Shown here: one piece after another, positions 133 to 57,680 of the stretch
Numbering within the stretch: the first letter of the stretch is position 1
How the letters are laid out: the number at the start of each line of letters is the position of its first letter
DNA from: Planctomycetota bacterium
Lineage (GTDB): Bacteria > Planctomycetota > UBA8108 > UBA1146
Direction: 5' to 3'
Assembly (NCBI GenBank): GCA_018694835.1
Contig: JABHOG010000033.1
Coordinates: forward strand, 1 to 64,000
DNA length: 64,000 nt
Program-made: the position numbers and the translations under genes
Notes under the pieces: model-generated
The model's database searches: none
Seen by the model: the letters and a program-made list of their open reading frames with translations, nothing else
Told to the model about the DNA's origin: nothing

Positions 133-1554
133 CAGCAGTCGGCGGCTCGCGAGCGGATTGAACAGGTTCAGGAAGCGGCGGACAGTGCCCGTGAAGCGGC
201 AGAAAAACTCACTTCGCTGGCCGAAGACTCCGATCTCGATCGACCTTCCCGACGCCAGCAGGATCTCGCGGATCAGACTCGTCAGCTGGAAGAGACCCTC
301 GATCGGCTGGAGAAGAAGCTGGCGCGGGAACAGAGCCTGTCTTCCGAGGAAGATGCAAAGCTGAGGAAGAAGGTGGGCGAGGCGCGCCAGGCACTGCGAA
401 GCGCAAGATCAGCAATGGAGAGCGCCGCCGGTCAGATGAGTGGAGGTGATTCCGCAGAATCCGCCCAGCAGGCCGCCAGGGAATCGCTGGAGCGAGCTCA
501 GGATGCCCTCGAAGGCTCGGATGAAGATGCACTGGAGAGATTGCGCAGGCAGCAGGAGGCGACTCCAGAACTGGCTCCGGAACAGGATGAGTTGGAACGC
601 CTGACCCGAAAGCGTGCCGAGGAAACAGAGCCACAGGATTCCCAATCTGCCCAGGGGCTCGAGGAAGCCGCCGGGAAGATGGGTGAATCCTCTGACAGTC
701 TCGAGCAGGGCGATTCCGCTGAAGCTCGTGAGGCGCAGGACGAAGCTCTCGAGCAGTTGCAGCAGGAGATGGACACTCTTCAGCAAGAGGAAAGAGAACT
801 GGTCGATTTGAAGGTGGAGCAGGAACTGATCGACTTGATCGGGACCATCACCGAGATGTCTGAACAGGTCGATTCGATCCTGTCCGAGACGCGGACTGTT
901 GCAGAAGCCGTCGGGGACGGCCGTGCGGGCCGCGCCCAGAGAGCGCGAATGAAACGTCTTGCTGGACAGGTGAAGGATGTCGAAGTCTCCGGGGCAGAGG
1001 TGCTGAAAGCTCTCGAGGAGGAGGGTGTTCGGGTCTTTTCATACATCGTACGGGACATGCTCTCAGACCTGGCAGAGGCGCGAGAGAATTTGAGTCCTCG
1101 TAGCGATCCCGGGAAGGACACCCAACTACTCCTGAAGGAATCGCTCGATGCCTTGAGAAAGTTGCGCGATTCCCTGGAAGAAGAGCTTCGTCGTCGCAAT
1201 CAGCAACAACAGCAGCAGCAGCAACAACAGCAGCAACAACAGCAGCAGCAGCAACAACAACAGAAATTGGTTCCTCCCGCGGCAGAACTTCTGGCGCTGA
1301 AAAGGATGCAAGAAGAGGTCTTACGCCGAACACGTCGCCTCGATGGAATGCGTGAGGAGAATGGTGATCTCGCTCCCCTCGAGGAGCGTGTGCTGGAGCG
1401 ACTGGTGCAGCGTCAGGGCAGTATCATCGAACTTACCACCCAGATCGCCGAGGATCTGCGAAGCCAGATGCAGCAACCCAGTGTCCAGGAAATGGCCCCA
1501 GAGCCGGTTTCGCCCGATGAGAAGGAGACCGATGGGGACCAGGGTGGCGGCTGA
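1..1554 (+). CDS. Glutamine-rich coiled-coil protein, 5' end outside window
   Basis: The frame is open from the first base, so the start lies upstream; 517 residues are visible. They begin with at least eleven QQSG/QQSD units (residues 1-44). A long Glu/Arg/Gln/Ala-rich stretch with coiled-coil character follows (about 50-390), then 21 consecutive Gln (401-421), a further charged helix and a short acidic, Gly-rich end. No catalytic motif or membrane span is visible in this part. Composition and neighbours (a small secreted protein and a squalene-cyclase-fold protein) recall the very long Q-rich DUF4175-type membrane proteins that planctomycetes encode in Bat-like (MoxR/vWA) clusters. That assignment is inference, and another structural coiled-coil protein is possible. 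A 124-bp gap separates it from the next gene. Confidence 0.75.
   Translation, partial: QQSGQQSGQQSGQQSGQQSGQQSGQQSGQQSGQQSDQQSDQQSDQQSAARERIEQVQEAADSAREAAEKLTSLAEDSDLDRPSRRQQDLADQTRQLEETLDRLEKKLAREQSLSSEEDAKLRKKVGEARQALRSARSAMESAAGQMSGGDSAESAQQAARESLERAQDALEGSDEDALERLRRQQEATPELAPEQDELERLTRKRAEETEPQDSQSAQGLEEAAGKMGESSDSLEQGDSAEAREAQDEALEQLQQEMDTLQQEERELVDLKVEQELIDLIGTITEMSEQVDSILSETRTVAEAVGDGRAGRAQRARMKRLAGQVKDVEVSGAEVLKALEEEGVRVFSYIVRDMLSDLAEARENLSPRSDPGKDTQLLLKESLDALRKLRDSLEEELRRRNQQQQQQQQQQQQQQQQQQQQQKLVPPAAELLALKRMQEEVLRRTRRLDGMREENGDLAPLEERVLERLVQRQGSIIELTTQIAEDLRSQMQQPSVQEMAPEPVSPDEKETDGDQGGG
1201..1263. repeat. Poly-glutamine tract made of a duplicated 30-bp block
   Basis: Sixty-three bases of CAG and CAA encode 21 Gln. 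The order of CAG and CAA codons in 1201-1230 is repeated in 1231-1260 with a single difference (the last codon is CAG in the first copy and CAA in the second). The tract therefore contains a recent 30-bp tandem duplication rather than simple single-codon slippage. Confidence 0.95.
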
Positions 1555-1678
1555 TGGCCAATTCATCTGCTCCCATTTCAGGGTATACTTGTGAAGAGCC
1601 ATCTGTGGCGACTGATCTCCGGGTCCTGATTCCCAGATCCCCCGGTGAAGTCTCCCTCAGGGGCGGAAAGAGAGTTTG

Positions 1679-2482
1679 ATGCGGTCGTCTACATTGCCAG
1701 CACTGCTCATGGGACTTGTATTCTTCTGGATCGGTCTTTCTGCGCCAGGATTCGCTCAGGATCCAGCAGAGAAACCGGAAAGTACATCCGAGAAGTCTCA
1801 GCCCATCGTGCAACCGGATGAGTCGGAGTCTTCCGATGAAGTGACCCCAGAGGACCCGCTTGATATAGACCCGCTTGATATTGATCCGCTCGATATTCTC
1901 GACTCTGCCGATCCACTCGGAAAGGTCGGCACTCTGGTCGATGAGATCTCCCGCAACATGAAGGAGATCGAGGACCTGCTCGAAGAGGAAGACACCAGTG
2001 ATAAGAACCAATCGGTTCAGCAGCAGACTCTGTCGGTGATCGATGAATTGATCACCGAGGTACAGCGCCTCACTGGCTCGTGACAGAATGGCGGAGGTTC
2101 CTCGTCGGGGAGCCCTCAGCAGCAGTCCGGGTCTCAGGCGGGTCAGCAGGACCAGCAGCAGTCCGGTCGTCAACGTAAGATGTCTTCGAAACAAGATCGT
2201 GGACAGCAGAAGTCGGGTGAGCAGCAATCGGATCAGAAGAAGCCGGGTTCAAACCCGCAGCAGAGTGAAGAGCAACTTCGAAATGACCGCACCACCTTGG
2301 GAGATGTGCCTCCGGATGCGCAGGGGGATCTACGCGATCAGCGTGGTGCTGGGCGTTGGGGTCGTCTACCAAAGACCGTGATCCAGAGGATGTACGATAA
2401 TGGCAAGCGACAGTTGCCAGAGAAGTACAGGATTCTGCTGGAGGACTACTTCAGAAAACTGCCGGAGCGATCCCCGCGTTGA
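1679..2482 (+). pseudogene. Secreted planctomycete-type protein split by one in-frame TGA
   Basis: An ATG at 1679 (a TTG lies just before it) opens 134 residues: a signal peptide (about 1-28, ending GFAQ), an acidic region with three DPLDI units, and a helix ending EVQRLTGS. A TGA at 2081-2083 follows. The same frame then stays open for 132 codons: a Q/S/G-rich linker (QNGGGSSSGSPQQQSG...) and a C-terminal block with RWGRLPK and PEKYRILLEDYFRKL. From family knowledge, signal peptide, Q/G-rich linker and WGxLP...PExYxxLxxxYxxxL block normally form one secreted planctomycete protein. This looks like a single gene broken by a nonsense change or sequencing error. Readthrough is possible. A separate start at ATG 2180 would keep only the last 100 residues. 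Function of the family is unknown. It sits between a coiled-coil gene and the overlapping squalene-cyclase-fold gene. Confidence 0.6.
1853..1897. repeat. 15-bp coding tandem repeat (DPLDI), 3 units
   Basis: Three 15-bp units of the pattern ga(c/t)ccgct(t/c)gatat(a/t) encode Asp-Pro-Leu-Asp-Ile three times within the acidic segment of the secreted protein. The third unit differs at three positions, two of them silent third bases. Confidence 0.93.
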
Positions 2483-18440: not shown

Positions 18441-18470
18441 GGGGCATCCTCCCGATTCTCATGCGACTTT

Positions 18471-18538
18471 GGTTCTCAAGCGCCTGTGGTTCTCAAGGGC
18501 CTGTGGTTCTCAAGGGCCTGTGGTTCTCAAGGGCCTGT
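18471..18538. repeat. 17-bp tandem repeat, 4 units, in a divergent promoter region
   Basis: Four exact-length copies of ggttctcaagggcctgt lie head to tail (18471-18487, 18488-18504, 18505-18521, 18522-18538). Only the first copy differs, by one base (agcgcc for agggcc). Each holds a GGGCC core. They are non-coding, sit between the XRE gene and nrnA, and could be repeated binding sites. Confidence 0.95.
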
Positions 18539-18749
18539 GGTTTGATTTCAGTTCAAGTCGAATTCAATGGCAGCCTGGATGCCTGAATCGCCTTGTCCTC
18601 GGGGAGATCCCTCAACGGATCGACTGGTCCCCACTTCGTCGTCGATGTAAAAGACAGGCTCTCGGAAACGATGGTCGACGAAACGAATCGGACATCGTTT
18701 TACGGCGACATGGTATTGCGTAAACGCAATGTCTGCAAGTAAGGAATTC
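18539..18749. other. Intergenic stretch upstream of nrnA, no gene seen
   Basis: Together with the 17-bp repeats this completes a 309-base gene-free gap between the XRE gene and nrnA. No convincing small gene, terminator or strong sigma-70 promoter is visible. An ATG at 18729 is in frame with nrnA but has no ribosome site, whereas taaggaatt lies just before ATG 18750. Confidence 0.6.
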
Positions 18750-54524: not shown

Positions 54525-54671
54525 ACAATTCACTGGTTGGGAACTCCTGGCTGCGAGGGTACCATCCTTGAAGCCCTTCGTTGAGGGGATCGGTATCAGG
54601 ACCAATGCAAGTTTCTGAGTGCAAGTTTTGTAAGCAGGCTGCGAATGCGAGCCGTGGAGAGGAACATCATC

Positions 54672-55703
54672 ATGAGCGATTCCCCAGCCGAGATCTCTGG
54701 CAGCGGATTCCCCCTCACTGCCCCCAGTTCTTCCCAGTTGCAACAACTGGTCGAAAAGCTGACCCCAGAACAACACCATGTCACTCAGAAGTCGGGTACA
54801 GAGGCGCCCTTTTGTGGTGGTCATCTGGCGGAGAAGAGTGCCGGAGTCTATGGCTGTGTGGTGTGTCGATTGCCATTGTTTCGATCGAGCGACAAGTTCG
54901 ACTCTGGCACCGGTTGGCCCTCCTTCTTCGATACCTATGATGCCCAGCATGTGACCAGGAAAAGCGATGCCAGCGGCGGCATGGTTCGCACCGAGATCAC
55001 TTGTGGAAGATGTGATGCCCACCTCGGTCATGAATTTTCAGATGGGCCGCCTCCCACCGGGATTCGCCACTGCCTCAATTCTCTCGCGCTCCACTTCTGG
55101 GCCGAAGGGGAGGCGATTCCACTAGAGATTCCACTAGAGATTCCGCGAGAGATTCCGCGAGAGATTCCGCGAGAGATTCCGCGAGCGATTTCCGATGCGA
55201 CCGATGCGCCGGCTACCCCCGATGCCGATCTGGCCATCGCATGGTTTGGTGGCGGCTGATTCTGGGGGATGGAGGACCGCTTTGCGGCCCTCGATGGCGT
55301 CGTCGATGTCATCACCGGATACATGGGAGGGCATCTGGATCACCCCTCCTACGAGCAGGTTTGTAGCGGCCAGACCGATCATGCCGAGACGGTGGAGATC
55401 CACTATCACCCGCAGCAGGTGACCTACACTGATCTGGTGAAACTGTTCTTCGAACTACACGATCCCACCACCCAGGATCGGCAAGGCCCCAATGTCGGGA
55501 GTCAGTATCGCTCGGTGGTCTTTTGCAACCACCCGGATGAAGAGCAACAGGTGCAGCAACAGATCGAACGACGGGTAGAAGAAGGTGTGTGGCGCGGTCG
55601 AAGCTGCTGCACTCAGGTCATCTCACCGGCGCCAACTTTCTGGCGAGCGGAGGAGCATCACCAGGACTACTACAAGAAGCATCGAGGCTTCTGCTCCCAC
55701 TGA
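54672..55703 (+). CDS. msrBA: MsrB-MsrA fusion methionine sulfoxide reductase, probable selenoprotein
   Basis: ATG 54672 opens an MsrB domain (about 15-145): zinc Cys in GCVVCRLP and CGRCDAHLGH, FDSGTGWPSF and catalytic RHCLNSLALHF. A six-unit IPLE/IPRE linker (149-172) leads to AIAWFGGG, then TGA at 55257-55259. The same frame continues FWGMEDRF...GYMGGHLDHPSYEQVCSGQTDHAETVEI, HDPTTQDRQGPNVGSQYRS and C-terminal YKKHRGFCSH, a complete MsrA. In all MsrA proteins the residue before FWG is the catalytic Cys of GCFWG, so the TGA replaces exactly that codon and is read here as selenocysteine. Length 343 residues including Sec. MsrB reduces Met-R-oxide and MsrA Met-S-oxide. If TGA were a stop, MsrA would lack its nucleophile. 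Confidence 0.85.
55116..55187. repeat. 12-bp coding tandem repeat (IPLE/IPRE), 6 units
   Basis: Six units, two attccactagag, three attccgcgagag and one attccgcgagcg, encode I-P-L-E, I-P-R-E and I-P-R-A. They form the linker joining the MsrB and MsrA domains. The frame is kept in all copies. Confidence 0.95.
55257..55292 (+). promoter_or_regulatory. UGA selenocysteine codon with candidate bacterial SECIS hairpin
   Basis: TGA 55257-55259 lies at the MsrA catalytic position. Downstream, GAGG-A-CCGC (55272-55280) pairs with GCGG-C-CCTC (55284-55292), leaving a TTT apical loop. The loop begins 21 bases after the TGA, within the 16-37 base range described for bacterial SECIS elements. If the closing G-C pairs open, the loop starts near a G, closer to the known requirement. 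There is no sequence consensus, so this remains a candidate. Confidence 0.55.
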
Positions 55704-57598: not shown

Positions 57599-57680
57599 CA
57601 ACAGTGGTACACCCGCAACAGTGGTTCACCCCGCAACAGTGGTTCACCCCGCAACAGTGGTACACCCCGCAACAGTGGTG
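57599..57680. repeat. 18-bp tandem repeat, 4 units plus a partial, upstream of DUF4212 gene
   Basis: Units of caacagtggttcaccccg lie at 57599-57615 (one base short), 57616-57633, 57634-57651 and 57652-57669, followed by an 11-base partial copy to 57680. The array ends 12 bases before the DUF4212 ATG, so it covers the expected promoter or leader region between two divergent transporter genes. Confidence 0.93.

Follow-up and report, generated by a model that had tools for sequence, protein, structure and literature searches.

We are close to certain, on computational grounds, that the msrBA fusion gene of an uncultured planctomycete encodes a selenoprotein, in which an in-frame TGA specifies selenocysteine (Sec, U) as residue 196, at the nucleophile of the MsrA half. 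The gene lies in a stretch of DNA of 64,000 nucleotides, here called the window. MsrA with a GUFWG/H motif is described in reviews as an established bacterial selenoprotein, with no mention of a fusion to MsrB (PMC13188914, PMC9312934), and MsrB-MsrA fusions are common; neither feature is new alone. What looks new is a Sec-MsrA that is fused to MsrB, keeps its resolving Cys, is the sole MsrA of its genomes and occurs in several planctomycete families. This combination of Sec-MsrA and MsrB was not found in the literature searched, which covered few subscription papers. The original prediction of a probable new selenoprotein is thus supported for the selenoprotein but not for its novelty as a family, given that Sec-MsrA was already established (PMC13188914; PMC4479559). 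The fused form, which had been expected to be unusual, is indeed a less familiar architecture but not a unique one, as it also occurs in other genomes of the family and phylum.

The gene spans 54672-55703 (all features are on the plus strand) and encodes 343 amino acids. Its frame runs from an ATG to a terminal TGA (55701-55703), and in translation the sole interruption is the TGA at 55257-55259, in the context FGGG-U-FWGMED. The sequence GGAGAGG stands a few bases 5' of the ATG at 54672, and an in-frame ATG further upstream, at 54645, is a possible alternative start. The MsrB (SelR) domain (54759-55097, residues 30-142) matches Pfam PF01641 at 1.1e-44, with 151.5 bits against a cut-off of 24.9, and was aligned with 3hcj. 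As anticipated, MsrB keeps its own catalytic Cys (Cys134 in RHCLNS, codon 55071-55073), which is invariant among the 33 aligned fusions. From knowledge of the family, we take Cys48 (GTEAPFC, 54813-54815) to be the probable MsrB resolving Cys, and the two CxxC pairs of the domain presumably hold zinc, as in zinc-binding MsrB. A linker of 12-bp tandem repeats follows (55115-55190, 6.3 copies, translated as IPREIPRE...), which is predicted to be disordered; its copy number varies between sister genomes, in which the linker is shorter. Strong short tandem repeats also occur elsewhere in the window; together with that of the linker they lie at 1-142, 18456-18542, 55115-55190 and 57599-57679, with units of 12, 17, 12 and 18 bp.

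The MsrA (PMSR) domain (55239-55685, residues 190-338) matches PF01625 at 1.4e-54, with 184.9 bits against a cut-off of 23.7, and has the active site GCFWG with Sec for Cys. Close to the C terminus, Cys341 (55692-55694) aligns with Cys198 of E. coli MsrA and is probably the resolving Cys; it is kept in 12 of the 13 full-length Sec fusions of the window's family and is Ile in genome G001. Pfam matches both SelR/MsrB and PMSR/MsrA within the one chain, and NF004042, the equivalog for bifunctional MsrB/A, covers residues 24-339 with 325.4 bits, 4.6 below its curated cut-off of 330. An AlphaFold2 model, for which Cys was written in place of Sec, has two well-folded domains with a disordered linker (residues 164-182) between them. 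Residue 196 sits immediately N-terminal of the active-site helix, and confidence is low for the four C-terminal residues, among them Cys341. Foldseek matches the model to MsrB (3hci) and to MsrA structures. The mechanical ORF list splits the gene at the TGA into an MsrB ORF (54645-55259) and a separate 144-aa piece from 55269, which is the outcome foreseen for simple annotation, namely MsrB plus a truncated MsrA.

The TGA replaces a residue that is otherwise fixed. Residue 196 aligns with the catalytic Cys of GCFWG in solved MsrA structures, and each of the 33 aligned fusions has either Cys or Sec in this column. Translation and alignment with Cys-containing homologues thereby bear out the original prediction of a continuous MsrB-to-MsrA frame with a single TGA on the column of the nucleophile Cys. 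Of the 16 genomes of the window's family, 14 have TGA at this codon. These 14 belong to five genera and supply 13 different full-length coding sequences, whose MsrA halves are as little as 55% identical. Median dN/dS in the family is 0.13 before the TGA and 0.14 after it (pairs with saturated dS excluded), and both the MsrB half and the MsrA half are under purifying selection. Across the phylum, a 24-base pattern for the Sec site matched 27 of 392 genomes, while the reversed control pattern gave 0 matches. The two family genomes without the TGA, G007 and G009, belong to one genus, and G009 has TGC at the site. The G007 ortholog (L037, about 1031-1923, minus strand) is an MsrB-MsrA fusion adjoining rsmG, as in the window, but the active-site motif of its MsrA half is gone (FFGVGAEEG) and the PF01625 score is far lower.

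The machinery for Sec insertion is present. The window's genome (95% complete, 149 contigs) contains a tRNA-Sec with anticodon UCA (67.5 bits), selA (527 bits), selB with SelB-specific domains (392 bits) and selD (342 bits); absence of selB and tRNA-Sec had been named as the result that would speak against the prediction. The genes for selA, selD and tRNA-Sec are consecutive on one contig, and selD itself contains an in-frame TGA, at the CAG-U site where SelD proteins with Sec usually have it. The tRNA-Sec search cut-off was also passed by tRNA-Ser look-alikes, and with true tRNA-Sec taken as >60 bits it was found in 20 of the 21 genomes checked. The one without, G005 (82% complete, with a TGA fusion), has selB, while selA and tRNA-Sec were not detected; in G001, which also has the TGA, no selB scored above the cut-off. 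Loss of the Sec machinery in the Cys-type relatives was considered and is not supported, as G007 and G009 both retain tRNA-Sec and selB; selA was not found in G009.

Downstream of the TGA lies a probable SECIS-like element, a hairpin at 55272-55292 (GAGG-A-CCGC-UUU-GCGG-C-CCUC). It starts 12 nt 3' of the TGA and is kept in the window's family, with 98% of cells paired. Synonymous variation in the codons directly 3' of the TGA is approximately half of that expected in the family (0.26 versus 0.44-0.52; p 0.0001 and 0.0006 for two column sets). No such suppression is seen in Cys-type MsrB-MsrA controls from Myxococcota and Holophagaceae (p 0.61 and 0.85), and in f59, another planctomycete family, it falls short of significance (p 0.31 from six usable codons). 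Compared with synonymous recodings, in which the peptide is held fixed, the hairpin of the window gene is more stable (z -3.3). The mean z for the window's family, whose sequences are related and whose scores are hence not independent, is -2.09, whereas three Cys groups give -0.29, -0.22 and -0.10. Only synonymous recoding reveals the excess stability; when the sequence 3' of the TGA is folded against dinucleotide shuffles, z is about 0. Covariation in the hairpin is not above shuffles, and the tri-loop (UUU/UUC) is without the apical-loop G usual in bacterial SECIS. In the stand-alone Sec-MsrA genes of f59 (L189-L194 and L196, 48 nt from the TGA), the hairpin at the corresponding place has a stem of 9 bp, in which compensatory changes occur, and a G second in the loop, and judged from these features the f59 hairpin is nearer to the textbook bacterial SECIS than the tri-loop hairpin of the window's family. 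Within the 64-kb window there were no Rfam matches and no tRNA genes.

A search with PF01625 found a single MsrA gene per genome in the 14 TGA genomes, namely the Sec fusion (in G010 divided over two contigs). In G007 and G009, which have no Sec form, it found one and two additional MsrA genes without TGA, respectively, the one in G007 being a separate gene elsewhere in the genome. Incompleteness could hide a further MsrA in any one genome, though hardly in all 14 together, and an undecoded UGA would leave these 14 related genomes without MsrA. The MsrB-MsrA(U) order is not confined to the window's family but recurs in G141, G233, G370 and G072; seven genomes of f59, and G021, have MsrA(U) as a stand-alone protein. 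In G257 (L187) the order is reversed to MsrA(U)-MsrB, and there an undecoded UGA would cost both domains. In a tree built from 71 MsrA domains, the Sec fusions of the window's family form one clade (97/88), and well-supported branches force at least four changes between Sec and Cys, whether by gain or by loss of Sec. A second class of planctomycete Sec-MsrA (L214-L218, in G019, G031, G041, G029 and G035) has the motif LGU/MGU-FW (for example LGUFWGPDSRFG) and a C-terminal extension; the one member tested has Clostridium oremlandii CoMsrA as its best match (1e-56). Besides this second-class protein, G019 and G031 carry a Cys-type MsrB-MsrA fusion.

CoMsrA (PDB 4lwj, 4u66) has an MsrA fold with a catalytic Sec, as has the window protein, and Sec makes it 20-fold more active than Cys at that position does (PMC4479559). 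It is a stand-alone 1-Cys type without any Cys residue and with an additional helical domain at the C terminus; it lacks a resolving Cys, and glutaredoxin rather than thioredoxin serves it (PMC4479559). In contrast, the window protein carries MsrB ahead of its MsrA domain, possesses Cys341 and ends at residue 343 without an extra domain, which sets it outside the CoMsrA type, and the similarity between the two is distant (about 1e-20). Cys-type MsrB-MsrA proteins (NF004042; Myxococcota, Holophagaceae and other Planctomycetota) share the domain order and length of the window protein at about 40-50% identity, but have a Cys codon (TGC/TGT) for the MsrA nucleophile, with neither synonymous suppression nor an extra hairpin after it. 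The MsrA-MsrB proteins of Helicobacter (7e43) and Treponema denticola (5fa9) also combine both activities in one chain, although, going by the entry names, in the reverse order. Sec-MsrA has been predicted from TGA/Cys pairs in marine bacteria, in marine metagenome and deltaproteobacterial sequences (PMC2398784, PMC1794560), and, unlike in the window protein, a fusion to MsrB is not mentioned in the main texts. One of these, the GOS survey, reports nine MsrA selenoprotein sequences and describes other selenoprotein fusions, none of them with MsrB in its main text (PMC2398784). Selenoproteins are known from planctomycetes, with MsrA not named in the main text of that study (PMC4807772).

If the TGA were a true stop, the MsrA half would be dead and MsrB alone would be made. 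Such a fate does occur in the family, as seen from the decaying MsrA half of G007 with its lost catalytic residue. However, a pseudogene would not be expected to hold TGA, and no other codon, at the nucleophile in 14 genomes or to show a downstream dN/dS of 0.14, and it would deprive those genomes of any MsrA, so we consider it extremely unlikely. Recurrence also speaks to the possibility that an ordinary Cys codon (TGC/TGT) was misread in sequencing or assembly. The genomes are all drafts assembled from metagenomes, but the same TGA is present across the five genera and, independently, in further families of the phylum, and the chance of such an error is negligible; the sister genomes thereby answer the concern over miscalled reads that came with the original prediction.

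It is highly unlikely that TGA has been reassigned or is read through as Trp or Cys without selenium, or that MsrA has an independent start at 55269, where an ATG lies. Of the 52 main ORFs in the window, 29 terminate with TGA, more than with any other stop, and so does the msrBA fusion itself, which argues that the genetic code is not reassigned, and the genome has a Sec system; reassignment was rejected on the strength of this majority. The mechanical ORF list does contain an ORF from 55269, but 7 of 13 relatives have Val in place of its start, Met200, and the resulting piece would be without the nucleophile even though the codons around the nucleophile are conserved. An independently started MsrA was therefore rejected as well.

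With Sec at residue 196, the fusion gene would encode one bifunctional methionine sulfoxide reductase. Its N-terminal MsrB domain would reduce Met-R-sulfoxide by means of Cys134, and in the C-terminal MsrA domain Sec196 would, by homology, attack Met-S-sulfoxide. Cys341 would then resolve the selenenic acid of Sec196 to form a Se-S bond, again by homology, and a thiol system such as thioredoxin may reduce this bond. The UGA at 55257 would be read by Sec-tRNA-Sec brought by SelB, and the RNA hairpin overlapping the codons just 3' of the UGA could aid its decoding.

A selenium switch might be added to the selenoprotein reading, with full MsrB-MsrA made when selenium is available and a free, active MsrB of 195 aa when it is not. 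The UGA lies 3' of a complete MsrB, so failed decoding should yield free MsrB, and this short product should fold, given that a disordered linker separates MsrB from the UGA. MsrB retains its own catalytic Cys in all members, and no second MsrA is present to offset loss of the MsrA half. Against this, the UGA position is automatic when MsrB is fused ahead of any Sec-MsrA, and the MsrA(U)-MsrB order in the G257 lineage means that the gate is not general. Overall, we regard the switch as possible but unlikely. The wider proposal for the window's family, that Met-S-sulfoxide repair depends wholly on selenium and that the UGA acts as a selenium gate by way of a non-standard SECIS hairpin, is speculative and in our view doubtful.

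With the selenoprotein described here, the known Sec-MsrA proteins gain a fused form with a retained resolving Cys, and its gene is an example of how routine annotation cuts such Sec genes in two. As the sole MsrA of 14 related genomes would require selenium, protein repair in these uncultured planctomycetes would be tied to selenium supply. The window's family, with Sec in most genomes, Cys in G009 and a decayed site in G007, offers a natural series for testing both the benefit of selenium and the consequences of its loss.
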